This document shows positions 17,203-60,279 of a stretch of 64,000 nucleotides of DNA, piece after piece. Source of the DNA: Parietaria judaica (lineage: Eukaryota; Streptophyta; Magnoliopsida; Rosales; Urticaceae); the NCBI GenBank assembly GCA_954871525.1, contig OX940861.1, positions 35,911,201-35,975,200 of the forward strand, given 5' to 3'. The position numbers and the translations under genes were made by a program. The notes under the pieces were generated by a model. The model worked only from the letters and a program-made list of their open reading frames with translations. It made no database searches and was not told the DNA's origin. Each line of letters begins with the position of its first letter. The stretch's first letter is position 1.

Positions 17203-17265
17203 GAACTACATAATGACTTGATCCCCAAATATGGGGTACGTAGGCAGCCCGTCTTATCAACGGGC
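17203..17265 (+). other. Two-hairpin RNA element, Tat-1 copy
   Basis: Starts 22 nt after the pol stop. GAACTACATAATGACTTGAT is followed by hairpin 1 (CCCCA-AATA-TGGGG, 17223-17236), the constant TACGTAGGCA, and hairpin 2 (GCCCGT-CTTATCA-ACGGGC, 17247-17265). CTACAT before and ACGTAG after hairpin 1 can pair as an outer stem with one mismatch. Four other copies in the window keep the constant parts and the pairing but change the stem bases. Confidence 0.7.
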
Positions 17266-17365
17266 ACAGTCTCAATCCAAATCCAAACCAAATCGGTCAC
17301 GCCATCATTAAGCGTAAAATCCAAAAATCCGCATTGACGAGGTAAAAATATCTAAACCCACTCTC

Positions 17366-17541
17366 TTAAGGCAACAAGCCTATCCGGGTAACAGACCCAT
17401 CACTTAAGGCAACAAGCCTATCCGGGTAACAGACCCATCACTTAAGGCAACAAGCCTATCCGGGTAACAGACCCATTCCTTAAGGCAACGAGCCTATCCG
17501 GGTAACAGACCCATTCCTTAAGGCAACAAGCCTATCCGGAT
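17366..17541 (+). repeat. 38-bp tandem repeat, about 4.6 copies
   Basis: Units beginning TTAAGGCAACAAGCC start at 17366, 17404, 17442, 17480 and 17518, each 38 bp long and nearly identical. They lie between pol and the 3' end of the antisense gene. Tat-2 has a diverged equivalent. The role is unknown; it may separate or terminate the two converging transcripts. Confidence 0.95.
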
Positions 17542-17972
17542 ATATTTATTCCAGAAATAAAACCAACGGACTACAACAAACAGACGAGCAAGAAACATTC
17601 GACGAGAAGCACCAACAGAATGATCAAATTGCAAGGTATTCGTGTATTCTTCCTACTTAGCAAATTTCAAATTTCGCGTAGTTTCGAATTCCTTATTCCA
17701 TACATAGAATAGATGTGCGAAAATCTAGAGACCCCAATTAGCCGAGTGAAATATAGCAAGTATTAGAAAGGGCACGAAGGGAGAATTAGCTTAGAAGCAA
17801 AAGAATCATTTAGCATAGAAAGAAAAATAGCAAAGGCCCTAACCGCGGGCATATCCAAACCATATAAAAAAAAAAAAAGGGTTCAAGCCGCCGTAGACTT
17901 GCCCACAGAAATTGTTCTGGCCTTAGGCCTTATTTAGCTAAAAACAAAAAAATCTGGGGTGAGCTCTATGCG

Positions 17973-20598
17973 TCAAACCCCGAGTACATCTACGATCTCC
18001 TCCTCGTCATTTTTCTTCTCTTCGGTCATATCTTCTTGCAAGGCGGGCTCCTCGGTCACGACCTCTTCGGCTGCGGGTTCTTCAAGGACAGGCCCTTCAG
18101 AGACGGGCTCTTCGGCGACTTGCTGCTCGGACTGGGCGCTTTGATCTGCAAAGGGGAGCTCGGTCAAATCGGCATCAGGAGACATGGCCGGAGACCCTAT
18201 CATCGGTACCGGTGTCCCCTCCAAGATAGCCTTGTAGCGGACAACGTTGCCTTCTAGGACCTCCTTCTCAGCCTCAAAGTCAGTGACCTTGCCATCGATC
18301 ACATCCTGGACCAACTCGAGGCAACCTTCGGCTTGGTCCAGACAGCAATTATCGGCAGCCGTACCTTTGTACCAGTCAATCATCGCGTCCCTCTCTTTCA
18401 CCCTTCGGCGATAACGGGAACGGATAGCGTTTTTCTCGACCTCACGGTCAAGCGACTGCTGCCGGGCCTCCGCCAGCTCAGAGATGAGGCGCTGCACGTC
18501 CTCCTTTAAAACCGCCACCTCCTCCTCCTTCTTCTTGGTCACTTCCTCTGCCCGTCCTCTTGCCGCATCAGAAGTTAGCACCTCCCTGACGGCCGCATCT
18601 CTCGCCTTATCGGCCTCCTCCACCAGCCCGGAAGCATTTTTCAGCTTCTCTCTGAGATCCTCAACCGTGTTCACAAGGCCCTTGATCCTAGATTCGGAAG
18701 ATGTTATCTTCCGACCCATCGTCAGTAGCTGATCGGACTTCGCCCGGATAGCCACCACGGCATCCGCCAGTTCCCTCTCTTTCAACGCAAGCTGCTCAGC
18801 AGCTTGCGCCCCCTCCTTCGCCTCCTCTAACTGGTCCTCGTAATCGAGAACCAGGTCGTTTATGGTCGCCGTGAGCTACACGTCAAAAATAAAAAGTAGT
18901 TAGAAAGATTTTTGACAATCAGCAAGCTTGGACAAATAAAAGATAAACGGAGACTTACGTGAACAGTCATAGCTGATACAGCCTTGTAGATAGGCTTCTC
19001 AGCAATAGACCTCGGAACTCTACCAACCCCGCCATTCGTAATTTGCCGGAGGAGCCCGGCCGCGACCTTAGGCGCTTTGTGGAGACCCTTGTCCCCGTAC
19101 CAGGTGCACCCGACCTTGCGAGTAACCTTTTTCTCCTTAGCTTTACCCCCGATCACGAGGGGAGCCGATCTCATTTTCTCCCCAGTCTTGCCCTGGGAGA
19201 CCTCTCTAGGGCGCTCAGCTTCGTGAGCAACCTCTTTCCCTTTGGCCTTCTCGAGGGCCCTGACCACTTCTTTCGGGGCCGAGTCACCCCTAGCCTTCTT
19301 ACGGACTTCAGAATCTCCCCCCTCTCGCGGCCGCTTCACCACGGCTGCGTCCTGAGAAGGACGGATAGGAGCAGGAGGGGGAACATCCCTCTTTTCAGAA
19401 TTCTTCGCCACAGGCGTGGCATCCGGAGTATTATCGCCGTCATCAGAAAGCACCACTACGGGCTGATCCCCTGCCGTCTGCACAGCAATATCAGCAGGAA
19501 CCTCCTCAGCAGGAGCCTCCTCGACCTTTTTCTCCGTCCCTTGACGGATAGCTCCATGAGCGGTAACGGTCGTGCCGGCCTGGGCCTCAACTCGTGGAGC
19601 CGGGCTAGACGTACCCGCCTGCTCCTCCAACTTCCTCTTCGCCCGAAGGCTTAAACCCTTAGGACGAGCAGCTTCCATTTCCTCTGCACATCCAAAAACC
19701 ACACTTAGGCAGAAATCAAATCAACAATATCAAACGGAATGCTTAGAGAAAAAGACCTTACCCGGAAGATCGGGAGCGTTGTTATCGTACGCGATGAATT
19801 CCTCCTCTTCTTCCTCAGGCCACAATCCGACGGACTCAAGCCTCTCCCGGGTGAATGACGACCACGGCTCGGGACCAAAGGGGAACAACTTCTTCTTCAA
19901 AGTCCTCCACTTGTCAGTAATAGGAAGAGACTTAGGCTTCTTAGAATCTTCAGCTGCGTAGGAAAAGAAGAAGAGAATTAGCAAACTTATCAAAAAATCC
20001 AAATAGAAAATCTCGCCAACCCAACCCGGAACCTCACCTATCTCATGCACCCATACGTTCTTGTAGCCCGGCCAAGATCCAAGTGTCTCCTGACCGGCTA
20101 GGAAAAAGAAATATTTGTGGGTCCAAGCACTTTCCTTCTTAGGAAGACCAGCAATGATTTCCCCTTCTTTAACGGATAGAAAAAACCTACCCTTAGCCTG
20201 ACCATTAGTCTTGACGACCAAGCCCGTCAACAAGTCTTCGAGTGTAAGTGTATACAAACACTCGTGAGCCCGAACAAGCAAGGCCGTCAGAATTCTAAAC
20301 GAGTTAGGACTAAATTGCCCTATAGAACCCCTAAGTATGAAAAATATTTTAGGGTAAGCTCGGGAATGGGAAATCTAAACCCCCCAGATTCAAAGAACCT
20401 TTCGTATACACAGATCCATCCGTCTATATTCTGTTCGTCAGCATGCTCATCTGGACCCGGCAATCTGAGCGAGATAGACTGCGGAATATTATATTTTACC
20501 CGGATCCTGGTAAGATCCTTAGGTTTTAAAACTGACCTCGGAGAATCTGTAGCCAGAAACTCCGTCCGCCATTTCTCAGTAACCTTTTTTGGACCCAT
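17973..20598 (-). pseudogene. Tat-1 antisense gene (PF04195-type domain plus coiled coil)
   Basis: A spliced gene on the strand opposite gag-pol. Exons from the start: 20598-20038, 19953-19762, 19683-18959 and 18875-17973, with three GT-AG introns of about 80 bp at the same places in Tat-2. Exon 1 (MGPKKVTEKWRTEFL...) contains the putative gypsy-type transposon domain known as PF04195/Transposase_28 (FESGGFRFPIPEL, SPNSFRILTALLVRAHECL). Exon 2 ends acidic (EEEEEEFIAYDN). Exon 3 is low-complexity, rich in Lys, Glu, Ala and Pro. Exon 4 is a long coiled coil (about residues 20-200 of the exon) with an acidic tail. The biochemical role is unknown. A 1-base deletion near 20327 shifts the frame in exon 1; Tat-2 is intact there but broken elsewhere. 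An upstream ATATATAT on this strand near 20905-20912 could be its own TATA box. Confidence 0.75.
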
Positions 20599-20899
20599 TT
20601 TCTGTCTAGAGAATCCTAGAAAAAACCAAAAGACCTAGACAAGCACAAAAACCCACCAAAGCTGCCCGAAGACCAACAAAAAGAACAGAAAAACAAATCC
20701 CAGAAAAACCTCTTAGCAGACCCTCAGAAAACAAAAGATAATAATTAGAAGGAAACTAGAACCTGAGCTTCCTAGGAGTTCGATGAAGAAGACGAAGAAA
20801 TAAACCTCGGAGCACCTTCGATGGCGGTTCGCAAAGTTTATATTTCTAAAAACTTTTTTCTCTCTCTCTAAAATTCGAAAATGATATTCGAATGCAAAA

Positions 20900-20920
20900 C
20901 GTAATATATATAGAAGAGAG
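20900..20920 (-). promoter_or_regulatory. Candidate promoter of the Tat-1 antisense gene
   Basis: On the minus strand a TATA-like ATATATATTACG lies about 310 bp upstream of the antisense ATG, followed by a CT-rich leader (20860-20875). In Tat-2 the equivalent position (near 36947) has CTATTTATACCC and the same CT-rich flank. This suggests an internal promoter independent of the LTR. Confidence 0.45.
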
Positions 20921-21399
20921 AGGAAGAGCAGTTACCTTCGATAAGACGTGGGCCGGATAGGACTGAAGAGACGTGCCCATAAATGTAAAACACTCGAGTA
21001 CTTATACTAAAAAACCGTCGCTAATCCTACGGTTAGGGTTTCCTCGAAAATCGCAACAAACCTCATCCTACGGTTGAGATCAGCGAGCTATCCGGGGACA
21101 CGTCAGCATGACCAGAATGACAGGTGTGTCAGAAGAATGCGAAGAGTTTATTCTCTTCGAACTTCGCAAAAAGGAACACGTGTCGTAACTGTTCCCGCCC
21201 AAAATTCGAAGCGACAGTTACAGCTTCAAGATCCTACTCGTCCATCGTATCTCGAAATTATCCAAAATCCTATCCGGAATATGCAGATTTGTGGCAAAAG
21301 TCACAGATTTAATTAATTCTATCCGGCACGAATTTTACATGATTTCATCGAGTATATACTATAAAATTTACTTCGTATTTTTTATAGTAGGGGGCTGAC

Positions 21400-22255
21400 T
21401 GTTGATGTACAAATTCGTCATTATTTAATATGACATAAAGTACTAAAGTTGTGAATTAATTAAATCCACAAACAAAGATTGAAGGCTTTAAAAGGAATAA
21501 ATCGATATCTACAAAAGCCCAATTGAGAAGCCCACTAAAGCTCTCAATCAGACAAGGCCTAATGGATACAAAGCCACTCGGCCCAAAGGGCCCAAAGGCC
21601 CAATATCTATCCGTCATCAACCCAGAAAGACGAGGGTATAATCGTCATACTATCTACCCGGCATCTCACTTCAAATCCAAGCGGAAGACCAGGAGTACGA
21701 AGTCAAGTCTTCAACGGGCATAATTCAAATACGGCGAAGAGAACGCAGTCGTGGGACACGTGTAGCAAGACAAGCCATTCAACCCGTTCAGCTCGGAGAG
21801 ACGACCCCACGATTCCTGGAAGTCCAACGGGAAGGATTGAAGTCTATAAATATCAAGCTCAAGCCCAGATCAAGGGAGATACGTACGCACGATCCTGAGA
21901 GAATACATCGAAAGCTCCTATTCAGCATTCTTGCTCACTTAGAAATTTTGTTGTATTCTTTGTCCCCGTTTTCATCCTTTTCTTTTATTCTAGACGTAAT
22001 TTGCTGCCTGTAGCTATCCGTCTATGTTATTTGTGGCAATAAACTAACAGAGGACGTAGTCAACTACCGCCTTGGGACGAACCTCTATAAAAAACCTCTC
22101 GTCTCGTTTACATCGCTTATATCTATATACATATATCAAGAGTGTATCGAGGGCTCGCAACGTGAGATATCGAATTCCACCAAGTTATTAATCTCAAGAA
22201 CATCATACACTCACAAGTCACACTTGACTGTTTGAAGTGGGAAACCACGTCAACA
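21400..22255 (+). repeat. Tat-1 3' LTR
   Basis: 856 bp, matching the 5' LTR except for one visible substitution (A at 21924 in place of G). A purine-rich tract (TAGTAGGGGGCTGAC) directly precedes it and serves as the plus-strand primer. The target duplication AAGGT follows. Confidence 0.95.
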
Positions 22256-22263
22256 AAGGTACG

Positions 22264-22884: not shown

Positions 22885-22889
22885 AAAAC

Positions 22890-23643: not shown

Positions 23644-23692
<49 letters not shown>

Positions 23693-24340: not shown

Positions 24341-24379
24341 ATCCATAATATTATATATATATATATAAGAAAAATATAA

Positions 24380-25494: not shown

Positions 25495-27180
25495 GTTCAT
25501 TCATAACAAATCATTTTTAGTTTCTTGGAAGTTGTTAGCTCGATATCTCCACATGTCAATGTCTTCGTTTCGTACAGACTTTTCAATTTAGCATAAACCA
25601 TATCACTACAGAGGTCATAGAGTAATTGATGTCTTGGCTAATTTTGGTGTTCAAAGCCCGGGTCACCATTATTGGCCTATACATCTTTATTTCACCATTT
25701 CTTTTGAAGATGGCATTTGTATTAGAGAGCTTTTGATTGCATCAATTTTGTGCTCTACGTGTTTGTAACTCTCTACATTTTCATTCACATTATTATGAGT
25801 TTCATTTTTGACGTCGCGTTTTTTAGTGTCGTTCTCTTAGGGATTCAAGTTCACTCCGTGACATTTTGGACATCCATTTTTTTCGCTTAAAATACATTAA
25901 TATAACAATGTACGTCCCCACGCGGAGTGTGGTAAAAAAAATATATTATAACTTGCTAATACACATACAACGTACGATTTGGTACGGTAGTAAAATTTAT
26001 AGCGGAATATAGTTGCGATGTTAACTTCGATTACGGGGTCTTTCACACCTTATAACGAGGGTTCCATTAATACGTGTAATATTGTATTCTAATTTCTAAA
26101 TGAATGATCGCTGATTTATGTTTAAGATTATTTGAACCATGTTCGATGAATCTTTAAAGCTGATGGGTTAGCGAATATAATACAAGGTAGGAAAATTATG
26201 TACTAATTAAGTTGACTTATTCAACCCAGTAATCAAGTTAGTTCCAATAATTTGATTGTCAAAAAAATAATTTATACCCTAAATTAGGTACAATTAAATA
26301 CCCATTAGTTATTCCAAATAGAAATGGTCAACGTGTCTTACATTTGCATCGCAAAACCAAATTACATTATTTGTGGACCATGACACATACAGATGTATGT
26401 CAATTTTGTCAATGCATGATGAATAATTAAGCAAATAATCCCATAAGCATGTCCATGCGTGAAATTAAATATTGTTGAATAAGTGGGAAATCGTTACGGT
26501 GTATTGATAATGTTATTTATAATTTTTGAATTTAAAGTTGAAGTCAATTAGTTTGGTAGAAATAAATATAAAAAAAAAAAAGATACTAGATTAATAATAC
26601 GAAGGCATTTTAATTTAAGTCATTACAATAATTTATTCTGTTACAAATTATGTTCAATTTACGAAGGGGAGTAGAACCTAGGTTAGTGATTAGCACGATA
26701 TAAGTGATTTAAAAATTGCATTAGTTACATATGAGGATGAGATAATTCGAAAGTTAAGATATAGGAATATATTTTTATAGACAATAATAAAACGATAGGT
26801 TTATATTTTTAGGTCGTTGACCTTGCGCAAGGATAATTTATAAAAAAAAAAAAAAAAAAAAAAGAGTACTTATATAGTTATATTATCATGATCGGTGGGC
26901 CAGCCCAACCTATGAGCGAGTTGGGCGGTCGCCCAAGGCCCCGGTTTAAAGTAAGGTCACTTTTGGAGTAGTCTATTAATACGTATATATAATTAAACTA
27001 TTGATCGCAAAACGTTACTAGTGTAGTAGCAAATTGTCAAATCTTAAAGACTTGAAGTCTAAGTAATTTTTTATTTATTTATTGTTTTATAATAAACCAT
27101 TGCAAGCTCCTACAATAACGTACTGGAACAAATCCGAATTCGTATCTATTAGTTAGTGTTATGTGCAATTTTAGAGATAT
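25495..27180. other. AT-rich DNA with scattered repeat scraps
   Basis: No gene recognised. A GC-rich stretch at 26892-26955 (GGTGGGCCAGCCCAACC, then GGCGGTCGCCCAAGGCCCC) looks like the terminal region of a hAT-like element similar in style to 8478-8540, but no partner end was found. A poly-A tract lies near 26842-26862. Confidence 0.45.
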
Positions 27181-27350
27181 GTAAAATTTAGGCCCCATTG
27201 GCGAAAGTCAAAGCCCACAAGCAAAGTCAAGGCTCATTTAGCCCAATCTCAAGCCCATCTGGCGAAGCCCGAAGGATCGGGCCCGAAGGCGAAGCCCGAA
27301 TGCCAAAGGGACATCCCTGAGAGCTGGTCGGTGCGACCAGTTAAGCGATG

Positions 27351-27514
27351 ACATCCCTCAAGACCACCGGCGACAAGGCGTTATGATCTCGACATCCCTC
27401 CAGACCACCGGCGACAAGGCGTTATGATCTCGACATCCCTCAAGACCACTGGCGACAAGGCGTTATGATCTCGACATCCCTCATGACCACCGACGACGAT
27501 ATATCAGGAAGCTA
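27351..27514 (+). repeat. 41-bp tandem repeat
   Basis: Units beginning ACATCCCTCAAGACCACCGG start at 27351, 27392, 27433 and 27474 (the last partial); a further ACATCCCT lies at 27311. It sits just upstream of the TATA box of unit C. Confidence 0.9.
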
Positions 27515-28112
27515 CGACAACCCTAGGTGCGTTCGACAACCTTTCCCTCGTCTTATGGTCACTATTCATCTCCTTGATTCAGGGAGAAATGGTCACAACC
27601 TTTTCCTATATATAGGAGGCTTTTCCTCCTCATTTTGGAGACTTTTTCCACACTTGGAATTCTCTCTCTAAAAAGAGAGCTTCTATCTCTAGAATTCTCC
27701 TTCTTCCTGCGAGTAGGGTTTCGACACTCTGCTCCTCAGAGTCTCGTCTATCTTGGCTCGTCAGGAACAAGGACGATACTCAACCCATGTCGATATTCGA
27801 CCCTTGACGATCGTCGTGCCTTACCGACCTTCGATCCATGTCGACGCCTGATCTTTGTCAAAGTTAGGGCTCTTGGTTGCTAAGGGTCTTTGACATCGAT
27901 GTCTGACCTCAGAAGTTGCCATTGTGGCGACTTGGTCCACCACCTAGACATGCCACCCCAGGCATGTCGCCTCGACGCCTCCTATAGCCTTGGCACCTAG
28001 TTGGTTCAACTAGCTTCACCATCTAGCTACGTCGACAGAGACCCCCGTCTCCGCAATCAGCTACCGGCTTGCCCAGACAAGCTTAACTACGTACGCCCTA
28101 ACCTTCCACTTT

Positions 28113-28168
28113 GAACTACGTGATGACCTGATCCCTTTAAAGGGTACGTAGGCAGCCTTTCAAAAGGT
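28113..28168 (+). other. Two-hairpin RNA element, unit C copy
   Basis: GAACTACGTGATGACCTGAT, then hairpin 1 CCCT-TTAA-AGGG (28133-28144), TACGTAGGCA, then hairpin 2 CCTT-TCAA-AAGG (28156-28167). CTACGT and ACGTAG pair perfectly around hairpin 1. The stem bases differ from the Tat copies, but pairing is kept. Confidence 0.65.
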
Positions 28169-28693
28169 TCGGCATCAAATATTTTTACCCTTTATCTTTT
28201 CCCCGTCTTCAAGCATATTCAATGACAAGCGTCATAGAGGCTTCGGAGGCTCAATCCACCGATTCTCCTAGACATGTTCTACATGTGCAGGTTACAGGAA
28301 CATCTTGCCATCAAGGCCGACGCCGCCAAGGCCGACGACCTCGAGCCTAGGGCTTTCCATGGATCCAACGCTATGGTGACTTCCCTACTCTGAGGTTCGT
28401 CGGAGACGACTACTTCAAGTCAACGTTGATCAAGACAGCTCATGCCTCGCTTGAAGCGACTATCCGCCTTCAGCTAAGTCAATCTGCATTGACTCACCAT
28501 TCAATTATCCAAGTGTTCACCAGGTCCCGCTCGGGGCCCGAACCTTGGATCCGACTCTAAGTTAAAGCCATTTTTACGCATTAACAGTTAGTTTTCATTA
28601 ATCATGATCACATATTCGGAAAAATAATCACATACAAATAACCGATCACAATATTCGGAATTCATATCTAATAAACGACGATCACAAATGCAT

Positions 28694-35617: not shown

Positions 35618-35622
35618 GCCAC

Positions 35623-36461
35623 TGTTGACGTGGTTTCCCACTTCAAACAGTCAAGTGTGACTTGTGAGCGTATGATATTCTTGAGATTCATGACTTGGTG
35701 GAATTCGATCTCTCACGTTGCAAGCTCTCGATTCACTCTCGATATATGTATATAAATATAAGCGGTATAAATGAGACGAGGGGTTTTTTTATAGAGGTTC
35801 GTCCCAAGGCGGTAGTTGACTACGTCCTCTGTTAGTTTATTGCGACAAATGACATAGACGGACAGCTACAGGCAGCAAATCACGTCTAGAACCAAAGAAA
35901 GAATGGGAAGAAATGAATAGAATACAACGAAATCTCAAAGTAAGCAGAAATGCGGGGTAGCGAGCTCTCGATGTATTCTCTCAGGGATGCGTGTGTTGAT
36001 CTGAGCTTGATATTTATAGGCTTCAATTCTTCCAGTTGGACTTCCATGAATCGTGGGGTCTTCTCTCCGAGTTGAACGGATTGAATGGCTCGCCTTGCTA
36101 CACGTGTCCCACGACTATGTTTTCTTCATCGAGTTTGAATTATGCCCGTAGAAGACTTGACTCCGTGCTCCTGATCTTCCGCTAAGGTTTGAATTGAGAT
36201 GCCGGGTAGAGAATGTGACGATTCTACCCTCTTCTTCCTGAGCTTATGACGGATAGTATTGGGCCTTTGGGCTTTTTAGACTGAGTGGCCTTGTATCCGT
36301 TGGGCTTTGTATGATTGAGGACTCTAGTGGGCTTCTCAATTGGGCTTTTATGGATATCGATCTATTCCTTTAAAACCTTTAATCTTTACTTGTAAATTTA
36401 ATTAATTCACAACTTTAGCATTTTATGTCATATTAAATAATGACGAATTTGTACATCAACA
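35623..36461 (-). repeat. Tat-2 3' LTR
   Basis: 839 bp. Contains the inverted G-box ACACGTGT near 36100 and a minus-strand TATA-like TATAAATATC near 36010-36019. The polypurine tract (GTAGGGGCTAAC on the minus strand) is just outside at 36462-36473. Confidence 0.93.
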
Positions 36462-37241
36462 GTTAGCCCCTACTATAAAAAATACGAAGTAAATTTTATA
36501 GTATATACTCGATGAAATCATGTAAATTTCGTGCCGGATAGAATTAATTAAATCTGTGACTTTTGCCACAAATCTGCGTATTCCGGGTAGGATTTTGGAT
36601 AATTTCGAGATATGATGGACGAGTAGAATCTCGAAGCTGTAACTGTCGCTTCGAATTTTGGGCAGGAACAGTTACGACACGTGTCCCTATTTGCGGAGTT
36701 CGAAGAGAATAAACCCTTCGTATTCTCCTGACACAGCTGTCACACTGGTCATGCTGACGTGTCTCCTGATAGCTCGCTGATCTCAACCGTAGGATGAGGT
36801 TTGTTGCGAATCTCGAGGAAACCCTAACCGTAGGATCAGCGACGGTTTTCGAGTATAAGTACTCGAGTGTTTCGCATTTATGGGCACGTCTCTTCAGTCC
36901 TATCCGGCCCACGTCTTATCGAAGGTAACTGCTCTTCCTCTCTCTCCTATTTATACCCTTCTTCGCATTTGAATTCCATTTTTCGAATTTAGAGAGTGAA
37001 AAACTCAAAGTTTTAGTGAGAGAAACTCTGAGAAATTTATGCTGAGTTCTTCGTGAAGATTTTCTTTGATTTCCTCCGTGTCTAGGGATCCAGGTTCTTC
37101 ATCTCTTTCTTACTCTTTCTTGTTGCTATTTCCTAGGGATTTTTCTGGGTTTTTGATAGACTTTACTGATTCGGGATTTCTTAAGCTTTCCTGGGATTTT
37201 CTATTCGTCTAGAAGTTTCGGTTTTTCTAATCTCTTCAAAA

Positions 37242-39915
37242 ATGGGTCCAAAAAAGGTTACTGAGAAATGGCGGACGGAGTTTCTAACTACAGATTCTCC
37301 GAGGTCAATTCTAAAACCTAAGGATCTTACTAGGATCCGGGTAAAATATAATATCCCGCAGTCTATCTCGCTCAGATTGCCGGGTTCAAATGAACATGCT
37401 GACGAGCAGAATACAGACGGGTGGATTTGTGTATACGAAAGGTTCTTTGAGTCAGGGGGCTTAGATTTCCTATTCCCGAGCTTATCCTGAGGTATTTTTC
37501 ATACTTAGGAGTTTCTATAGGGCAATTTAGTCCTCATTCCTTCCGGGTTTTGATGGCCTTGCTTGTCCGGTCCCACGAGTGTTTGTGCACACTTACACTC
37601 GAGGATCTGTTGACGGGCTTGGTGGTTAAAACTAACGGTCAGGCTAAGGGTAGGTTTTTTCTATCCGTTAAAGAAGGAGAAATATTGGCGGGCCTACCTA
37701 AGAAGGAGAGCGCGTGGACCCACAAATATTTCTTTTTTCTGGCCGGTCAGGAGACGCTTGGGTCCTGGCCGTCATACAAGAATGTGTGGGTTCACGAAAT
37801 AGGTGAGAATCTGGGCAGGGGATTGAAATTCTATTCGGCCTTTTACGTGCCTTAGTTGATTTTTTTTTTGTTCTGTTCTACAGCTGAGGATCCTAAGAAG
37901 CCTAAGTCTCTTCCTATCACGGACGAGTGGAGGGCTCTGAAGAAGAAACTTTTCCCAAACGGTCCTGAATTCTGGTCGTCGTTCACGCGACACAGGTTCG
38001 AATCCGTCGGGTTGTGGTTGGAGGAAGAAGAGGAGGAATTCATCGCGTACGATAACAACGTTCCCAATCTTCCGGGTAAGATCTGTTTCTCTAAGCTTTC
38101 CGCTAGATATTGAATATTTGGCTAAGCGTAGAATCTACACGTGCAGAAGAGATGGAAGCTGCTCGTCCTAAGGGCCTGAGTCTTCGGGCGAAGAGGAAGT
38201 TGGAGGAGCAGGCGGGTACGTCTAGCTCGGCGCCACAAATGGAGGTCCAAGCCGGCACGACCATTACTGCTCAGGGAGCTATCCGTCAAGAGACGGAGAA
38301 GAAGGTTGAGGAGGCTCCTGCTGAGGAGACTCCTGCTGATATTGCCGTACAGACGGCCGGGGAGCAGTCTGTCGTAGTGCTTTCTGACGACGGCGACAAT
38401 ACCCCCGAAGCCACTCCTGTGGCGAAAACTTCTGAGAAGAGGGATATTCCCCCTCCTGCTCCTATCCGTCCTTCCAAGGATTCGACTCGTCCTTCTCAGG
38501 ACGCAGTCCGTCCTAGGGCGGATTCGGATGTTGTGGCAAAGCGGCCGCGAGAAGGGGGAGATTCCGAAGCCCGTAAGAAGGCGAGGGGTGACTCGGCCCC
38601 GAAAGAAGCGGTCAAGGCCTCCGAGAAGGCCAAAGGAAAGGGGATTGCTTATGAGGTTGAGCGCCCCAAGGAGGCTTCCCAAGGCAAGGCAGGGGGAAAG
38701 CCGGGTTCGTCTACTCCTACTATAGGGGGCAAAGCCAGGGAGGGTGTGCTTCGGAAAGAAAGCACGGCTAAGGAAAATGAGATCATCCGTAAGGTCGGGT
38801 GTACTTGGCATGGCGACAAAGGTCTCCATAAGGCGCCCAAGGTTGCGGCTGGCCTGCTGAGGCAGATTAAAAATGGCGGGGTTGGCAGGGTCCCTAGGTC
38901 CATTGCTGAGAAGTCTATCTACAAGGCTGTATAGGCTATGACGGTTCACGTAAGTACTTTAATAAATTTTTATCCGTTCTAGCTTTATTTTTCGAGTGGT
39001 TTCTAACTCTATTTTTTGGGCGGATAGCTCACGGCGACTATAAACGACATGGTTCTCGATTATGAGGATCAGTTGGAGGAGGCCGCGGAAGGTGCGCAAG
39101 CTGCTGAGCAACTTGCGCTGAAGGATAGGGAATTGGCGGGTGCCGTAGAGGCTATCCGGATAAAAGCCGACCAGCTACAGACGATGGGTCGGAAGATTAC
39201 TTCTTCCGAATCCAGGGTCAAGGGCCTGATTAACACGGTTGAAGACCTCAGGGAGAAGCTAAAAAATGCTTCCGGGCTGGTGGAGGAGGCCGATAAGGCG
39301 AGAGATGCGGCCGTCAGGGAGGTGCTAACTTCCGATGCGGCTAGAGGACGGGCTGAAGAGGCGGTTAAGGCAAAGGAGGAGGAGATGACGGCCTTGAAGG
39401 AGGACGTACAGCGCCTTAATGCTGAGCTAAACGAGGCCAAACAGCAATCTCTTGATTGTGAGGTCGAGAAAAATGCTATCCGTTCCCGCTATCGCCGAAG
39501 GGTGAAAGAGAGGGACGCGATGATCGCGTGGTACAAAGGTACGGCCGCCGACAACTGCTGTCTGGATCAGGCCGAAGGCTGCCTCGAGCTGGTCCAAGAC
39601 ATCATTGGCGGCAACGTTCAAGATTTTGAGGCCGAGAAGGAGGTCCTTGAAGGCAACGTTATTCGCTACCAAGCTCTCTTGGATGCAGTTCCTGCGCCGC
39701 TGATAGGGTCTCCGGCTATGTCTCTTGATGCTGAGTTGACCGAACTTCCCCTTGCAGATCAAAGCGCCTAGTCCGAGCAGCAAGTCGCAAAGGAGCCCGT
39801 CTTTGAAGAGCCCACAGCCGAAGAGGTCGTGACCGAAGAGCCCACCGAGCAAGGAGATTTGGCCGGCGATGAGAGAAATGACGGGAAAGAAATCGTGGAC
39901 GTACTTGGGGTTTGA
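37242..39915 (+). pseudogene. Tat-2 antisense gene (PF04195-type domain plus coiled coil)
   Basis: Same gene as in Tat-1. Exons 37242-37802, 37884-38075, 38147-38949 and 39028-39915; the three GT-AG introns are at identical positions. Disabling changes: a missing base near 37455 in exon 1, a stop at 38932-38934 near the end of exon 3 (where Tat-1 has a sense codon) and a stop at 39768-39770 in exon 4 (Tat-1 has CAG). Where Tat-1 is frameshifted (exon 1, 35 codons further on), this copy has the intact base count. The N-terminal transposon domain, the low-complexity Lys/Glu/Ala segment and the coiled coil (39049-39700) are otherwise preserved. Function unknown. Confidence 0.75.
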
Positions 39916-40378
39916 CGCATAGAGTGCCCCCAAATTTTTTTGTTTTTAGCTAAATAAGGCCTAAGGCCAGAACAATTTCTATGGGCAAGTCTACGACGGC
40001 TTGAACCCTTTTTTTTGTACGGTTTGGATATGCTCGCGGTTAGGGCCTTTGCTATTCTTCTTTTTATGCTAAATAATTCCTTTGTTGGATTTCTTCCAAA
40101 TTAATTTCCTTTTGCACTCTCCCTTGATAACGGCTAAAAATCTATTTGGCTAAGTTCGGTATCTAGATTGATAAACTTATATGAAATTACAAAAGAAATT
40201 ATAAAAGTTTCTAAGTATGAAAAAAGGGAGTTTACCTTGCGATTGAAGTGAATTCATCGTTCTTCTGTCTGTTCGTCGATCATCTCTGCTCGTCTCCACG
40301 GTAGTCCGTAAGTTTCATGTCTGCAACAAATATGCTTGTAGACTTTTGGATTAGTATAAATAATTTTAATGGGGTGGG

Positions 40379-40560
40379 CTTGTTGCCCGACGAGGCTTGT
40401 TGCCTTAGTTGATGGGTTTGTTACCCGATTAGGCTCGTTGGCCCTTAGAGATTGGGTTTGTTACCCGGTAGGCCTGTTGCCTTAGGAGTGTGGGTCTGTT
40501 ACCCGCTTTAGGAGTGTGGGTCTGTTACCCGGTAGGCTTGTTGCCTTAAAGAGAAAGTTT
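40379..40560 (-). repeat. Diverged 38-bp-type repeat in Tat-2
   Basis: Irregular repeats of GGTCTGTTACCCG and GGCTTGTTGCCTTA, the inverted equivalent of the Tat-1 38-bp array, with variable spacing (about 29-42 bp). Confidence 0.75.
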
Positions 40561-40643
40561 AGATATTTTTACCTCGACAACGCGAATTTTCAGAGTTTAC
40601 GTGAAGGTCGGACCGATTTGGTTTGGATTTAGATTGAGACTGT

Positions 40644-40706
40644 GCCCGTTGGTAGGACGGGCTGCCTACGTACCCCATGTTTGGGGATCAAGTCATTACG
40701 TAGTTC
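40644..40706 (-). other. Two-hairpin RNA element, Tat-2 copy
   Basis: On the minus strand: GAACTACGTAATGACTTGAT, hairpin 1 CCCCA-AACA-TGGGG (40686-40673), TACGTAGGCA, hairpin 2 GCCCGT-CCTACCA-ACGGGC (40662-40644). The loops differ from Tat-1 while the stems are kept. CTACGT/ACGTAG is a perfect outer stem here. It starts 22 nt after the pol stop, as in Tat-1. Confidence 0.7.
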
Positions 40707-40728
40707 ATGGGAGACCGGGTAGGTCGGG

Positions 40729-43700
40729 TCAGGCGTAGTATTTCCTCAGGTGCATGGCATTCCAGCTCTGAAGGACTCTCGTTCCTTCCGGAGTGGCTAG
40801 CCGGTATACTCCAGGTTTTACTACTTCAGTGACGATGTAAGGTCCTTCCCAGTTAGCCCCGAGCTTACCCGCGTTCAACTCGGCGGTGTTCTGGAAAACT
40901 TTTCTGAGGACCAGCTCTCCCACGATGAATTTTCGACGTTTGATATTTGAATTATAATACTTCGCTATCGAATTTTGATAGTTAGTTATTCTTATCAAAG
41001 CCTGTTCTCGTCTTTCGTCGATGTGGTCGAGCTGATCTTCCCTCATTTCGTCGTTGAGTTCTGCGTTCAAGGGTGCGTGTTCCCTTCGAAGGCTGGGTGT
41101 CTCTATCTCTGCTGGTATTACGGCTTCGGTGCCGTATACCATTGAAAATGAAGTTTCCCCGGTGGCCCTACGCGGGGTAGTTCTGTAGGACCAAAGGACT
41201 CCTATGAGCTCATCCGCCCATCGTCCTTTCTTGGTGTCTAGGCGTCTCTTGATTCCATCCACTATGATCCGATTAGCTACCTCAGCTTGGCCGTTGCCCT
41301 GGGGATACCTCGGAGTGGATATGTTCAAGGATATTTTCCAATTGATGCAGAAGTTTTGGAATCTCATAGAAATGAACTGGGGTCCATTGTCAGCTATTAT
41401 CTCTTTTGGGAGGCCGAAACGGCTAATGATGTTTTTCCAGAGGAAATTTTCCACATCAACGTCCTTGATGTTTGCATATGCTTCAGCCTCCACCCATTTG
41501 GAGAAGTAGTCTGTTACGACGAGTAGAAATCTTTTCCCAACCGGGGCTAGGGGAAAAGGCCCAACTATGTCCATAGACCATTTCATGAACGGGTACGGGA
41601 CTGAGACTGAGGAGAGTTCTTCTGCTGGCCGGTGTATGGACGGGGGGTGTCTTTGGCATTTATCGCATCTTTTGGCGTGGGCTTCGCTGTCTGCCAGCAT
41701 AGTGGCCCAGAAAAAGCCTTGCCTTTTTGCTTTGTTTGCCAAAGATCTTTCTCCGGAGTGGTTGCCACATTCTCCGTCATGGATTTCGTGGAGTACAATT
41801 TGAGCTTCGGTCTTCCCTAGGCACCTTAGGTAGGGTCCGGTGTAGCTGCGTTTGTACAATTTCCCCCCGATAAGGCAGAATCTGGCACTTTGGATTCTTA
41901 GTTTCTTAGCCTTCTGCTTGTCCTGGGGTTTGGTTCCGGTTAGGATATAGTTGATGATCGGGGTTCTCCAATCGTCTTCTTCCATTTGGATGTTGTAAAC
42001 TTCGCGTGTCACGCTAGGTTCGTCTATTGTTTCGACTGGAATTATCCTCTTTACTTCGGGATTCGAAGTTGAAGCTAAACCAGCCAATACATCTGCTAAT
42101 GCGTTCTCGCTCCTCGGTATCTGGATTATCTCGACGTGATTGAACTGTTGAATCAAACCTTTTACTACGGAAAGGTATTTTTCCATTCTATCGTCACGGG
42201 TGGCGTATTCGCCACTGATTTGACTGGTAACTAACTTGGAGTCGGAATGGGCCCTTATCCTTCGGGCTCCTACGGCTTTTGCTAGTTTGAGGCCAGCAAT
42301 GAGGGCCTCGTATTCGGTCTCGTTGTTTGTCGCATGGAATTTCAATCTGAAAGATTGTTCCAACACTTCTCCCGTAGGGGATATCAAACGAATCCCGATC
42401 CCGGATCCACCTTGGTTTGAGGCTCCATCGACTTCGAGTCTCCATTCTCCATCTTCGTGGCCCTCTTTCAAGCCATCGGCCGGCAATTCGATCAGAAAAT
42501 CAGCCAGTACTTGTGATTTCGCACAGGTACGGATTTTGTATTCTATATCGAACTCGCTTAGCTCGACTGCCCATTTTGTGAGTCTTCCCGATTGGTTCGG
42601 GCTGTGGAGGATGATCCTCAAAGGTTGGGTGGTCATGACCATGATAGTGTGGGATTGGAAGTAAGGCCGGAGTTTTCTCGCTGCGGTTACCATTGCCAAT
42701 GCGAGTTTTTCGATAGCTGGATATCTGGTTTCAGCATCTTCTAGAGATTTGCTGATGTAGAATATTGGTCTTTGCTCACCGCGGTCCTCTCTCACTATTA
42801 CCCCACTCACCGCCGATGTTGAGACAGCCAAGTATAAGAATAATGGCTCTCCCAGGATCGGTCTGGTAAGTATGGGTGGCGTGGAGAGGTACCTTTTTAG
42901 CTTTTGGAATGCTTCCTCGCACTCTTCGGTCCATTCGAACTTTTTGTTCCCCTTCAACAGTTTGTAAAAGGGTAAGCACTTGTCCGTCGCTCTTGATATG
43001 AACCGATTAAGAGCTGGGATTGTCCCAGTCAGCCTTTGTGTCTCCCTAACAGTCCTTGGGGAGGGCATGTTCTGGAGGGCTTTTATCTGGTCGGGATTAG
43101 CTTCTATTCCTCGCTGTGTGACCAAGTAACCCAGGAATTTTCCCGAAGTTACCCCGAAGGTGCATTTTGTCAGATTAAGCTTCATTTGATACTTCCGTAG
43201 TATCGCGAAGCACTTTTCTAAGTGGGCTACATGATCTGTTGCTTGGGAGGATTTTACCAACATATCATCAATATAGACCTCCATAGTTTTGCCGAGTTGT
43301 TCAGCAAACATCTGGTTGACTAATCTTTGATATGTGGCTCCGGTATTCTTTAATCCGAAAGGCATAACTTTGTAACAGTATATACCCCTGTCGGTTATGA
43401 AAGCCGTTTTTTCTTGGTCCTCGGGGTGCATGAGGATCTGGTTGTTTCCCGAAAACGCATCCATAAACGACAGTAGTTCATGCCCACATGTTGCTTCGAC
43501 TAGTCGGTCAATGTCGGGCATTGGGAAACTGTCTTTAGGACAAGCTTTGTTTAGGTCAGTGAAGTCAATGCAGACTCTGGCCTTTCCGTTTTTCTTTTTC
43601 ACGACGACCGTATTTGCTAACCAGTCTGGGTATTTGACTTCCCTGATGGATCCGGTTTGCAGCAGTTATGTGACTTCTTCGTTTACAGCTTGGGCACGAT

Positions 43701-44009
43701 CCGGGCCTAGCTTCCGCCTTTTTGTTTCACCGGCTTATAGCTGGGGTCTACATTCAGGCGGTGGGTTGCGATGCTTGGGTCTATCCCGGGCATGTCCTTA
43801 TGGGACCAAGCAAAACAATCCCGGTTTTTGGTGAGGAATTTGAGGAGTTCTTTTCTGACGTTATTGTCTAGTCCTTTTCCTAACCCTACCCGGTGATCCG
43901 GATTGTCGGGATCGATCTGGACCTGGACTATCATTTCCACGTTGGGTCCGTCCGTATCGGTGGTCCTTTCCTGGTCGTCCCCCTCTTTTTCTTCTACCGA
44001 GATTAGTTG
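40729..44009 (-). pseudogene. Tat-2 pol, inactivated
   Basis: The same domains as Tat-1 Pol. From 43602 to 40729 the frame is open (957 codons) and includes RT (YIDDMLVKS), both RNase H domains and integrase with its D-D-X35-E residues. The N-terminal part is broken by a one-base loss in an A run near 43720 and a stop at 43666-43668 (Tat-1 has a Lys codon). The residue after the readthrough triplets is ATC, not ATG, so this copy has no pol start like that in Tat-1. Confidence 0.85.
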
Positions 44010-44012
44010 CTA
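44004..44012 (-). promoter_or_regulatory. Readthrough signal in Tat-2
   Basis: On the minus strand TAG-CAA-CTA at the gag-pol junction, which fits UAG-CAR-YYA. It is kept although the surrounding sequence has diverged. Confidence 0.7.
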
Positions 44013-46521
44013 TGCGGTAGATTTCTCTCTTTCGGCCTTAGCGGCCTGGATGTTCCGGAATGCGCTCATATAGCAGATCCTGGATTGCTTCTGGTTTCCC
44101 TTGACCTCAACGATTTTTCCTTCCCTATTGGGGAAGCGTATTAGTTGATGGTACGACCTTCATCATGTGCAGCCATGGTCTTCCTAGTATCATGTTGTAA
44201 ACTGACGGGCAGTCTAATACTAGGAAGTTCTTTGTCCTTCCTACCCCTGCTGCTGCGATTGACAGCCGTACCGTGCCTATTGCATTGATGGTTCCTCCAT
44301 CGAAGCCGGTTAGAGGGATGGTTTCCCTGCTGATCTCGGTTTCTTCGACTCCCAACTTCAGCAACGGCTCCAGGAAGATCACGTCGACTGAGCTCCCATT
44401 GTCGATTAGTATTCTATCCGTCGTGTATGAGGCAACTAGGAGTGTGATAACTAGCGCGTCATCGTGCGGACCGATCAGTGTGGCTGCTTCACTGTCCTTG
44501 AATGAAATTTCAAAATCCGGCTCTCGCCTCGGAACGATTATTGGTCCGGCTTTGAGCCTTCGTTGGTGAGCCTTGATGGAATTGACTGAATTTTCGTGCA
44601 GTTGGGACCCTCCTACTATTGTGTAGATTCTGCCAATGGGCTCGGGGATCTCATCAAGCTGTTCGCCAATGTCTTCTGTTTCCTCATATGTCTGCTCGTC
44701 TGGTTCAGCGAGCATGTGTACCCGTCCTCTTTTGTTTGGCTGGGCATTTTCTCTTGGTGTCCTTTGCCGCTCGGCTCTTTTTTGGCTGTTCTGAGGTTGG
44801 TCTTGAGGGGGGTTCTGTTCGGGTGCTTGCCCGTTTTTCAGCTCATTGCCGAAGTTTATTTCTCCCAATTCTCCATTGATGTATTTTTCGGCCAGGCGAG
44901 CACGGAGCACCATACAGTTTCTTGTATGGTGTCCGAACACCTTGTGGAAATTGCACCATGCTTTGGGGTCGTGTCGCGGGAATGCTTCATGGCTATACGG
45001 CGGGAAGTCCTTGGTGCTGACTAATATTTCTCCTGGGGCTTCTTCTACTTCAGCCTGTGCTTCGAAATCCGCGGTTTCTGAATTTACGTTGAAAACGTAT
45101 GGATTTCGCGGGTTCGGTCCGTTGTTTACCCTCGGATTCTGGGTTTGGAACGGATGCTTTTGGGTCGGGGAGGAGCTCCTTTGTCCTCTGAAGGGATTGT
45201 TGTGGCCTCCGGTTCTGGGCTGTATCGGTTGACCGGCTAGGCCTGGGTTTCGTTGATGGACGGGCTGGAGTCCGTGCTTTCTTCGTAGAGCCTCTAGCTC
45301 CTCGTCGTGTCTGATCCAATTGGACGATCTGTGGATTACGTCTTCAATGGAGTTGTAACGATTTACGACTATATCCGTTTTGAATTTTGAGTCGTACCAT
45401 AACCCGGCCGTGAGGGCAGCTATGGCAGTCTCGTCACTTATCCCGTCTATCTTGACCATGGTTTTCTTGAACCGGGTCATGAAGGATCTGAGAGGCTCTC
45501 CTCTCTCCTGCTGTAAAGCATAGAGGTTTGCCACTGTGGTCTCGGTTTCCATAAACATGGAGAAATGTTTGAGAAACAGGGTGGTCAGCTGCCCGAAGTT
45601 ATCGATGGATCGAGGTTCCAGTTTCGAGAACCACTCCATTGCTGGGCCGGCCAGATTCTCCGAAAAGTACTGGCATCGCCCAACGTCTAACTCGAGTGCT
45701 TCCAAGTTTGCCCGCCCCATTGCGATCCTGAACAATCTTAGGTGTACTTTGGGGTCAGTTGTCCCGTCGTACTTTGGCAGATTCACTCGTCCTCCGTCTC
45801 TGAGCCTGAAGGGGGTCCTTTCTGACTCCTCCACTAGACGCTTTATCTCAGGGGCGGCGGTGGTGGCACTGTGTACACGGGAGTGCACAAGAACGAGTTT
45901 TTCGTTCATCTCAGCCATTGAGCGTTTAAGTTCCTCCAGCTCCGTGCTTTGGGGAGCGGGTTCGGGTTACGCGGTCTGGAGGTGTGCCCGTCCATACACC
46001 GAGCTTGGATGCCTCGGGTACGTGCTAGGCTGCCCATTAAGGGCCTGGACGGTGTCACAATTTTGCTCGGGTCCGGACAGATAGCCCGGGCGACTAGAGC
46101 GTTGGCGACTGCTCGATGCAAAGTTCCCTGTCCCAGTCGGATAGTACCCCGACAGGAGGGTGAAGAGGGGTGTCCCTACTTCGGGAGGCGGCGGAGGTGT
46201 TGGGGGCCTGGGGCCGCTAGGCGGCGGGGGCTGGTTTTGCCTCGGCGCTTGCGGATTGTCCAGATCGGAAAAATCAAAATGGACAGCGCTGAGGTTAGCC
46301 CGGCTCTGGTGCCCAGAGCCCTGTACTGGACCTACTCGGCTACTATTCTGGTGTTGTTCATTTTGGGCTTGGTTTGCCGCGAGAAGTTCGATCTGCCTGC
46401 GCAGTTCTTGGTTCTCGGCGTTCCTCGCCTCCAGTTGAGACTGTAGTTCGTCTGTTTTCGTGTTTTGCCTGGGGTTGTTCACCTCAGACTCGGTCACGGC
46501 TATGATTTCGTCGTTGCTCAT
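44010..46521 (-). pseudogene. Tat-2 gag-protease, inactivated
   Basis: Start equivalent to Tat-1 (MSNDEII at 46521). A stop at 45967-45969 interrupts the frame after about 184 codons. The same frame resumes and is open to near 44146, with the Gag domain, the CHHC knuckle (CNFHKVFGHHTRNC) and protease DNGSS. An 11-bp deletion near 44146, between copies of ATCAACT seen in Tat-1, then shifts the frame before the natural end. Not functional. Confidence 0.85.
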
Positions 46522-46585
46522 GTTTGCGGAGTGCTTCGAGCTCGTGGATGTTGGCGAGATCAATTTCCCACAGACGGCGCCAAAC

Positions 46586-47423
46586 TGTTGACGTGGTTTC
46601 CCACTTCAAACAGTCAAGTGTGACTTGTGAGCGTATGATATTCTTGAGATTGATGACTTGGTGGAATTCGATCTCTCACGTTGCAAGCTCTCGATTCACT
46701 CTCGATATATGTATATAAATATAAGCAGTATAAATGAGACGAGGGGTTTTTTTATAGAGGTTCGTCCCAGGCGATAGTTGACTACGTCCTCTGTTAGTTT
46801 ATTGCGACAAATGACATAGACGGACAGCTACAGGCAGCAAATCACGTCTAGAACCAAAGAAAGAATGGGAAGAAATGAATAGAATACAACGAAATCTCAA
46901 AGTAAGCAGAAATGCCGGGTAGCGAGCTCTCGATGTATTCTCTCATGGATGCGTGTGTTGATCTGAGCTTGATATTTATAGGCTTCAATTCTTCCCGTTG
47001 GACTTCCAGGAATCGTGGGGTCTTCTCTCCGAGTTGAACGGATTGAATGGCTCGCCTTGCTACACGTGTCCCACGACTATGTTTTCTTTGTCGAGTTTGA
47101 ATTATGCCCGTAGAAGACTTGACTCCGTGCTCCTGATCTTCCGCTAAGGTTTGAATTGAGATGCCGGGTAGAGAATGTGACGATTCTACCCTCTTCTTCC
47201 TGAGCTTATGACGGATAGTATTGGGCCTTTGGGCTTTTTAGACCGAGTTGCCTTGTATCCGTTGGGCTTTGTATGATTGAGGACTCTAGTGGGCTTCTCA
47301 ATTGGGCTTTTATGGATATCGATCTATTCCTTTAAAACCTTTAATCTTTACTTGTAAATTTAATTCATTCACAACTTTAGCATTTTATGTCATATTAAAT
47401 AATGACGAATCTGTACATCAACA
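46586..47423 (-). repeat. Tat-2 5' LTR
   Basis: 838 bp, followed inward (46585 downward) by the primer site TTTGGCGCCGTCTG on the minus strand. Flanked outside by GCCAC. Confidence 0.93.
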
Positions 47424-47429
47424 GCCACT

Positions 47430-53465: not shown

Positions 53466-53469
53466 TTAT

Positions 53470-54225: not shown

Positions 54226-54285
<60 letters not shown>

Positions 54286-54549
54286 CAGACCAGTGAGAGC
54301 TATGTATTTTTACATTTTTAGTACCATGTTATACACGTCAATTGAAACAAGAGGTCTCGTACATACACAAATCGGTACCAGATAGTTGGAAAAACCAAAA
54401 GCACAACTGTCTCTTTTTCTTTTCTTTTTTTTTGAAGGAAAAGCACAACTGTCTCTCATTCACAACTAATTACACATATGAAAATTATGTTTACAATTTT
54501 GCCCTCGTCCTCAAATTGGGTGTCTTCGAAATAATGCCCCTAATTGACG
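53470..54549. other. AT-rich DNA with a TA microsatellite
   Basis: No gene recognised. TA run at 54233-54282. CAGTGGCGGA at 53551 looks like a hAT end, but no partner was found. Confidence 0.5.
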
Positions 54550-54559
54550 TTTGGAACAA

Positions 54560-55028: not shown

Positions 55029-55039
55029 TTTGGAACAAA

Positions 55040-57600: not shown

Positions 57601-57608
57601 CTTGAAAT

Positions 57609-58300: not shown

Positions 58301-58308
58301 CTTGAAAT

Positions 58309-59250: not shown

Positions 59251-59857
59251 TACGTATTATGGGTGATTTTTGCCGAATCAATTTTGGCCCAAAAACTACC
59301 CCTAGAGGCCCATATCTCAAAATCAAAAAGCCCAAATAGTGCGAAAATAATTTTCACTATTAAAATAAAAGTTGAATAACAAAACGCGCCCTCGCGCACC
59401 GTGACGAGATCCCGGATTCCCTTAACACGCCCTAAATAGCCTTGACGCGCCCTAACGCGCCCTGCCAGGGCGCGTTAGGGCGCCGTGTCATGGCGCGTAC
59501 GCGCCCTGTCAGGGCGCGGGAAGGACTAAAAGAGTTATTTTTATTTATCTCGAGGCCCTTGGCCCCTCCTATAAACAGGAGCTTGATTTCATTCAAACGG
59601 TAACTCCGATTCAAACGCTCTATATAGCGATAAACACCATTTTCTCTTATATATATATATTCCGGTAGGAATACCAGACTAAGGTCGGATCGGAGGCGTT
59701 AGCAAGAGCGGATGCGGTTGATCTCTGACCTGCCCTACGGAGGCTCCGGTTCTCAGCGGTCACCGACCTATATCCCGATTCCTTGGACTTTGCGGTAACG
59801 GGTCGGAGGACCCGGTTCCGGTCCGACGGTAAGTGGGGGGTCCAATCTACCAGAGGA

Positions 59858-60150
59858 GCTAGCCAGAGCGGAAGCGCTGGAGGAATCCTCGGCTCACCGG
59901 AGGAATCGCCGACTCCCTAGAGGAAGGTTCGAGCGTCGTCTGACTCCCGCCTCCACCAGCTAGAGCGGAAGCGCTGGAGGAATCGCCGGCTCACCGGAGG
60001 AATCGCCGACTCCCCAGAGGAAGGTCCGAGCGCCGTCCGACTCCCGTTTCCACCAGCTATAGCGGAAGCGCTGAAGGAATCCCCGGCTTACCGGAGGAAT
60101 CGCCGACTCCCTAAAGGAAGGTCCGAGCGCCGACCGACTCCCGTCTCGGT
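59858..60150 (+). repeat. 97-bp tandem repeat in unit E
   Basis: Three units starting near 59858, 59955 and 60053, containing CGGAGGAATCGCCGACTCCC. Unit D has the same motif at lower copy number (29940-30110). Confidence 0.85.
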
Positions 60151-60207
60151 CATCGGCCCCCAACTTGCCCAGCCAAGCCCAGTCACGCACCCCCTAACGT
60201 CCACATT

Positions 60208-60279
60208 GAACTACGTGATGACCTGATCCCACTTGACTACAAGTGGGTACGTAGGCAGCCTCACTATATGTGACGAGGT
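60208..60279 (+). other. Two-hairpin RNA element, unit E copy
   Basis: GAACTACGTGATGACCTGAT, hairpin 1 CCCACTTG-ACTA-CAAGTGGG (8 bp, 60228-60247), TACGTAGGCA, hairpin 2 GCCTC with GAGGT (60258-60262 with 60275-60279, one G-U pair). CTACGT and ACGTAG pair perfectly around hairpin 1. The longest hairpin-1 stem of the five copies. Confidence 0.7.

Follow-up and report, generated by a model that had tools for sequence, protein, structure and literature searches.

A two-hairpin RNA element predicted in Tat retrotransposons of Parietaria judaica and in their protein-less relatives

Packaging and dimerisation signals (PSI/DIS) have been proposed for the barley BARE elements, retrozymes are long terminal repeat (LTR) elements with hammerhead ribozymes, and the constitutive transport element (CTE) of Mason-Pfizer monkey virus (MPMV) is an export element; the CTE and the musD transport element (MTE) are sited downstream of pol or env. 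Here we analyse 64,000 nt of DNA from Parietaria judaica (this whole stretch is called the window below), in which five places carry a short element common to Tat retrotransposons and to relatives without proteins. It is predicted to form two RNA hairpins in which the letters vary by family while the pairing is kept, a prediction supported by the covariation analyses described below.

Like the MPMV CTE, the element is a cis-acting structured RNA in an LTR retroelement, but it has no Rfam match, occurs also in LTRs and in protein-less elements, and its function here is putative; the same comparison holds for the RNA transport element (RTE) of mouse intracisternal A particles and the musD MTE (PMC12786077, in the part available). 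With retroviral packaging and dimerisation signals and the BARE PSI/DIS it shares hairpins with conserved unpaired bases, which are kept by non-autonomous RNAs and, in the LTR class, lie 5' of the primer binding site (PBS); it differs in being nearly invariant across Gag proteins of about 26% identity and in lying after pol in the Tat families of the window. Retrozymes are likewise plant non-autonomous LTR elements with structured RNA, but no Rfam family scores at or above its gathering threshold in the window, and this includes the hammerheads. Permissive Rfam searches of positions 17150-17350 and of three other element loci (L011, L037 and L040) returned nothing over the element. Among the matches listed, neither Rfam nor the open-licence literature surveyed holds a description of such an element, the titles found with the strings TACGTAGGCA and ACGTAGGCAG are unrelated to retrotransposons, and the available part of PMC12392961 makes no mention of one. 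In rice, terminal sequences common to both link RIRE2, a Tat-lineage helper that the accessible text of PMC9033089 places under Retand/TatVI, to the defective element Dasheng; in the present case the trait in common is an RNA element with covarying hairpins and not LTR similarity alone.

The element and its copies

When the five places were re-read, all of them carried the frame of conserved blocks and two hairpins that a first-pass annotation of the window had described, and every stem it had listed for hairpins 1 and 2 is present in the sequence. Two copies belong to the retrotransposons Tat A (17203..17265, forward strand; hairpin 1 CCCCA:TGGGG, hairpin 2 GCCCGT:ACGGGC; E 1e-20 with model R1, which includes this copy) and Tat B (40644..40706, reverse strand; E 3e-21). 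The other three, all on the forward strand, lie in a solo LTR, unit B (28113..28168; CCCT:AGGG and CCTT:AAGG; E 3e-21, copy included in R1), and in the LTR-like units C1 (30177..30248; CCACTTG:CAAGTGG and GCCTC:GAGGC; E 3e-17) and C2 (60208..60279; CCCACTTG:CAAGTGGG and GCCTC:GAGGT; E 1e-22, copy included in R1). The nearly constant part of the element consists of CUACGU-R, CYUGAU and UACGUAGGCAGCC, and the variable part is the hairpin sequence.

The 23-nt left block GAACTACRTRATGACYTGATCCC has five matches in the window at up to three mismatches, against a mean of 0 in 100 shuffles; the 30177 copy has a single mismatch, GAG where RTR is expected. TACGTAGGCAGCC occurs exactly five times. In the whole assembly to which the window belongs (538.7 Mb in 87 contigs), the one genome from which all our evidence comes, a 20-mer of the element has 758+756 copies (reversed control 0), and the wider core CTACN{2,14}TGATN{8,38}TACGTAGGC has 1471+1426 = 2,897. 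With only 3+6 = 9 matches to the reversed core and a shuffle mean of 0, we dismiss a chance origin. Several same-strand pairs 3.3-6 kb apart are found among the matches listed, and those fetched are LTR pairs. All copies studied closely belong to Tat-group elements or to protein-less elements with the same replication signals. Similar TACGTAGG hairpins presumably occur in the LTRs of other dicots. Viral contigs gave two matches to the element pattern, judged to be chance, and four stretches matching a Tat pol pattern, none of them a relative; a pattern search of genome contigs gave five matches in bacterial records, counted without reading their sequences.

Compensatory change in hairpins 1 and 2

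From alignment A1, which holds 21 of the 44 distinct element sequences (one per visibly different family), RNAalifold recovers an outer stem, hairpin 1 and hairpin 2. Pairing cells amount to 85.5% versus 77.9% in shuffles (0/500) and at most 46.5% in slid controls, double-change cells number 43 versus 15.9 (0/500), and pair 4 of hairpin 1 is found as GC, CG, AU, UA and GU. In alignment A2 (15 sequences with near-identical copies left out, mostly post-pol, L030 and L039 being the uncertain cases), pair 46-67 of hairpin 2 is CG in nine sequences and UA in six, and another pair is CG in nine and UA in three. A separate test used 48 hairpin-1 strings drawn from 100 listed of the 2,897 core matches together with the loci: the 45 distinct strings are 88.9% paired, a figure lowered by two rows mis-split at TGAT, versus 72.4% in shuffles (0/5000).

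The tree-based tests used 50 distinct sequences out of 56, with hairpin 2 readable in 46 of the 50. Because the flanks are unalignable between families, the trees were built from the element itself, and each 3' column was re-evolved on the tree to give the null. Under this tree-aware null the paired cells reach 0.884 versus 0.603 in hairpin 1 and 0.924 versus 0.770 in hairpin 2 (0/1000 each), while branches with double changes number 7 versus 1.2 and 8 versus 0.9, respectively (0/300 each). The outcome is unchanged when the hairpin columns are left out in building the tree, with nulls of 0.601 for hairpin 1 and 0.734 for hairpin 2 (0/1000 each). Compensatory change beyond phylogeny is therefore found in both hairpins, and the first-pass claim of a selected RNA structure is borne out for them.

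The same cannot be said of the outer stem CUACGU:ACGUAG, which had been proposed to close hairpin 1. It is nearly invariant, has no compensation and zero double changes, and does not beat the tree-aware null (166/1000 and 258/1000), and we no longer treat it as a proven helix. In the window the CTACGT/ACGTAG complementarity is perfect in just three of five copies, the exceptions being 17203 (CTACAT) and 30177 (CTACGA). In A2 and in the best fold of the Tat A copy, an alternative stem (CUUG with CGUAGGCA) takes its place.

Two results run counter to a covarying structure. In an R-scape-like test of all pairs, on the same 50 sequences, no single pair reaches E<0.05: the highest-ranking pair (E 0.8) lies outside the structure and looks like a lineage split, and the leading structural pair comes second with E 3.8 (about 0.03 if rescaled for the 21 pairs of the proposed structure). 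When the LTR class is taken by itself, hairpin 2 has no excess over shuffles in its first six pairs and the inner four give 79/5000, and we have dropped the claim of hairpin 2 covariation within that class. The covariation check is thus positive at the level of helices, for hairpins 1 and 2, and negative for strict single pairs; a lack of covarying pairs, which would have spoken against the element, was found in part and not in full.

Folded as single strands, four of the five window copies give z-scores of -2.7 to -3.5 and the 28113 copy -1.2. The antisense strands of two window copies fold about equally well (z -3.7 and -3.0), so that folding energy alone cannot show the strand. Equal folding of both strands would suit a DNA-level feature without an RNA role, such as a binding site or an insertion-linked palindrome, as would the outer stem without compensation and the nearly invariant left and right blocks, which contain the palindrome ACGT/TACGTA. 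We regard such a feature as highly improbable, since the two hairpins change in a compensatory manner though their loops differ in length, and since G-U is favoured over A-C: 20/6 in hairpin 1 and 38/11 in hairpin 2, the latter count being raised by a single pair, G-U in 22 copies. An excess of G-U over A-C is expected for sense RNA, and together with the covariation it argues for sense RNA rather than DNA.

Two positions of the element, after pol and in LTRs

Tat A (10435..22255, forward strand) is a single Ty3/Gypsy insertion with all its parts: LTRs at 10435-11290 and 21400-22255 (99.88% identical), the target site duplication (TSD) AAGGT, a PBS (TTTGGCGCC) at 11292 and a polypurine tract (PPT; AGGGGGCTGAC) at 21389. 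Its pol frame (13899..17180, forward strand) encodes reverse transcriptase, RNase H, a second RNase H and integrase, with Pfam matches to RT_RNaseH (388-487), RVT_3 (527-644) and rve (807-903). The additional RNase H is a Tat-specific feature according to the accessible part of PMC9033089, and its presence places Tat A in the Tat clade; the nearest pol relatives among the matches listed are from Brassicaceae. Tat B (35621..47424, reverse strand) has LTRs at 46584-47424 and 35621-36462 that are 98.3% identical. In both, the distance from the pol stop to GAACTAC is 22 nt, as the first-pass annotation had reported, and model R1 finds no element in the LTRs of Tat A.

In window-type Tat families, the element begins some 17-24 nt after the pol stop (spacing from stop to AACTAC 17-24 nt in the seven element-bearing loci where both are readable; the usual stop is lost in L063). 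Among the pol ends listed on assembly contig C1 below 29.8 Mb there are 12, of which 11 have the exact core within about 75 nt; the twelfth (L045) has the element with one change in the left block, giving 12/12. A second set, of 20 pol-end loci, was chosen by hand to span different families out of the 100 listed of 774: the element is present at E<1e-12 in nine, and another (L060) breaks off directly after GAACTACAT.

Set against Tat A, the two most diverged Tat families of the comparison (L037 and L038) have an identity of 0.67-0.87 over the element's first 60 nt and of 0.17-0.50 past that point, while the closer families, L036 and Tat B, can still be aligned beyond the element. Post-pol-type copies include Tat families with pol 69-86% identical and flanks near random identity.

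Several other features were noted in the Tat elements. The Tat A element is followed by 38-bp tandem repeats at 17362-17551, and between pol and the 3' LTR there are antisense open frames of 300, 286 and 214 aa (17973-20374, reverse strand) for which Pfam gives nothing at E 0.001. In the Tat LTR, GAGGACGTAGTCAACTA comes after AATAAA (11071-11130 and 22036-22095), and Tat A, Tat B, L031 and L032 all conserve this arrangement; the ACGTAGT of GAGGACGTAGTCAACTA is complementary to the ACTACGT of the element, so the LTR and the post-pol element could pair.

The remaining window copies had been assigned to non-coding units. These units are in fact LTRs. Unit B (27157..28586, forward strand) is a solo LTR that runs from TGTTATGTGCA to ACGCATTAACA, is flanked on both sides by the TSD GTTAG and is of the LTR type of L067/L070. 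Units C1 (29207..30531) and C2 (59257..60587), both on the forward strand and with approximate boundaries, belong to the L043 family. No PBS match was found 3' of C1 or C2 in the window; in the L043 family the LTR end is followed by a PBS of the same type as in a second Tat lineage, described next. A TATA box 0.5-0.7 kb upstream had also been claimed for the three copies, and TATA-like boxes are indeed present at 510, 728 and 643 nt.

This second Tat lineage, with gag and pol, is represented by L068-L070 (assembly contig C1, about 5.885-5.898 Mb). It carries the element in both of its LTRs, which are 91% identical, and the LTR is followed by the PBS TTTGGCGCTAGAAGGAGGGG. Compared with Tat A, its gag is 26% and its pol 46-63% identical; stops interrupt the pol frame in this copy, and no element was found 3' of pol in the approximately 2 kb read. 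L067, a relative of this lineage, retains remnants of gag and of the second RNase H. Since a gag- and pol-bearing Tat lineage has the element in its LTRs, the LTR position is no mark of non-autonomy. A further locus, L030, has a gag remnant and no pol match, and its copy of the element precedes a PPT-like site by about 0.9 kb.

Carriers of the protein-less kind are represented by 14 loci of the large retrotransposon derivative (LARD) type, L016-L029. They have the PBS in 14/14 (at most two substitutions) and the PPT in 13/14, a repeat pair holding the element is seen in at least 8 of the 14, and in five of the six loci L020-L025 two element copies flank the PBS and PPT. None of the 14 internal regions matches the gag or pol of the window's Tat elements, the only queries searched, and by these features the loci are non-autonomous LTR elements. 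The internal regions are 1.8-5.4 kb long, which would put some on the side of terminal-repeat retrotransposons in miniature (TRIM) under the 4 kb rule given in the accessible text of PMC9033089. The first-pass annotation's sharing of the element between Tat retrotransposons and relatives lacking proteins therefore stands, the relatives having a PBS and PPT of the Tat kind.

Side observations on the LTR families are as follows. The internal regions of L016, L025, L026 and L028 contain tandem arrays, in which forward open frames reach 436-609 aa; L019 is an LTR-int-LTR-int-LTR array with three nearly identical LTRs and two internal regions; and positions 4278-4398 of L021 match, at 84-87%, a tandem repeat 3' of pol in an element-less Tat-type locus (L066). 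A T-rich stretch ending in GCAGG, which resembles a 3' splice site, lies 3' of hairpin 2 in L034, L040, L041, L042 and L067; it is absent from the Tat copies, and we rejected a conserved splice acceptor as a general feature.

In the LARD-type loci, CCTATAAA lies 111-190 nt 5' of the element in 11/14 and AATAAA 110-152 nt 3' of it in 13/14, so that the element would lie in R. This spacing would suit a role in RNA-end processing (polyadenylation or strand transfer in the R region), with the post-pol copy of one lineage being a passenger. Against the passenger, the post-pol type pairs as well as the LTR type, even with flanks near random identity, which a passenger would not do (pairing in hairpin 1 is 0.90 in the post-pol type, CTACRTA, n=18, and 0.875 in the LTR type, n=32). 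In addition, the post-pol copy of Tat A is about 4 kb 5' of the 3' LTR, so neither strand transfer nor tRNA priming fits. We consider such a role distinctly unlikely.

The two positions, in the 3' UTR directly after pol in one lineage and in the LTR 5' of gag in another, would also be compatible with a translation element for gag-pol, acting as a 3' or 5' cap-independent enhancer or as a short upstream open reading frame (uORF) with a shunting hairpin. All five window copies have ATG ACY TGA immediately 5' of hairpin 1. However, this mini-ORF is absent from families such as CTACGTGGGACCTGAT, so the conserved uORF ending just before a stem that marks a pararetroviral shunt is not found, and that candidate was rejected. 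The element is also kept in L018, L020, L024 and L027, where the longest forward internal frames are just 109-150 aa. Because protein-less families do not need translation, such a role is disfavoured, and we think it very unlikely.

Packaging and export as candidate roles

Translation, priming and strand transfer suit at best one of the two positions, and by exclusion packaging and export remain. Our tentative preference, drawn from sequence comparison, is for a packaging signal: Tat Gag may use the element to pick its own RNA and that of the protein-less relatives. The element would be transcribed within the genomic RNA (in R for the LTR class), the hairpins would present the invariant CYUGAU and UACGUAGGCAGCC blocks, these would be read by the CHHC knuckle of Gag or by a partner, and such reading would select the RNA for the particle. 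The suggestion in the first-pass annotation that non-autonomous units keep the element in order to use Tat proteins would be consistent with this.

Three considerations would favour packaging. Parasites would need such a signal most, and the protein-less families do retain the element alongside the LTR ends, the PBS and the PPT, all of which are required in cis. In the LTR class the element lies upstream of the PBS. Finally, a CX2HX4HX4C knuckle is found in Gag of five of the seven coding loci scanned (L030 and L071 lack it), and it is kept in both Tat lineages though their Gag proteins are only about 26-31% identical.

Other observations weigh against packaging. A canonical CCHC knuckle was sought in Gag and none was found. 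Packaging signals do not usually lie after pol, and the invariant blocks barely change while Gag is about 26% identical, for which a host reader fits at least as well. Ten of the 20 picked pol-end loci, all ending in YYQ-stop and assigned to a deeper Tat-type group, have no element after pol. One of this kind, L065, is a Tat-type locus: its pol shares 45-62% identity with that of Tat A, and tblastn gives a match across the second RNase H region, though the broken frames have no Pfam match to that domain. The 6 kb downstream yielded no element and no recognisable 3' LTR. As a separate observation, six element-less pol ends (L048, L049, L054, L055, L058 and L059) share a post-pol block, approximately TGGCCCTAAAACGGGATGGCCTCC with small variations, which is perhaps another RNA hairpin.

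In the main rival reading, a host RNA-binding protein would recognise the element, which would serve nuclear export or RNA stability independently of its position, in the manner of the RTE, MTE and CTE. Such a role would account for the two positions, one of them directly after pol as in the MTE and CTE, and for blocks that are nearly invariant though Gag is 26-31% identical. In the available part of PMC12786077, the RTE and MTE are described as cis RNA export elements, RNA export of plant LTR retrotransposons is said to be without direct study, and Ogre, which PMC9033089 (in the part available) groups with the Tat lineages, is among the intron-bearing exceptions. The same part of PMC12786077 has plant LTR retrotransposons generally without introns, for which reason the need for such an element is unclear; moreover, no Rfam match covers the element, and the Tat-type group ending in YYQ-stop manages without it after pol. 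On balance we find export rather doubtful.

A further possibility, which we rate as unlikely, is that the CUACGU and UACGUAGGCAGCC blocks are frozen because they are needed in trans, in Tat-Tat or Tat-LARD pairing that would form a shared dimer or packaging interface, while hairpins 1 and 2, being needed in cis only, drift with compensation. If this is true, lineages whose Gag proteins are about 26% identical would have a single packaging commons between them, and a move of the element from the LTR to the post-pol site, or back, could leave its role intact.

Returning to packaging and export as such, both the export of plant LTR retrotransposon RNAs and their selection for the particle are poorly known, and a short, common, covarying element of helpers and protein-less relatives provides a defined RNA to test. 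The element also provides a search model that links non-autonomous families to their helpers where coding sequence is absent. That one Tat lineage has it in the LTR and another 3' of pol would show that a cis signal can change place and yet be retained.

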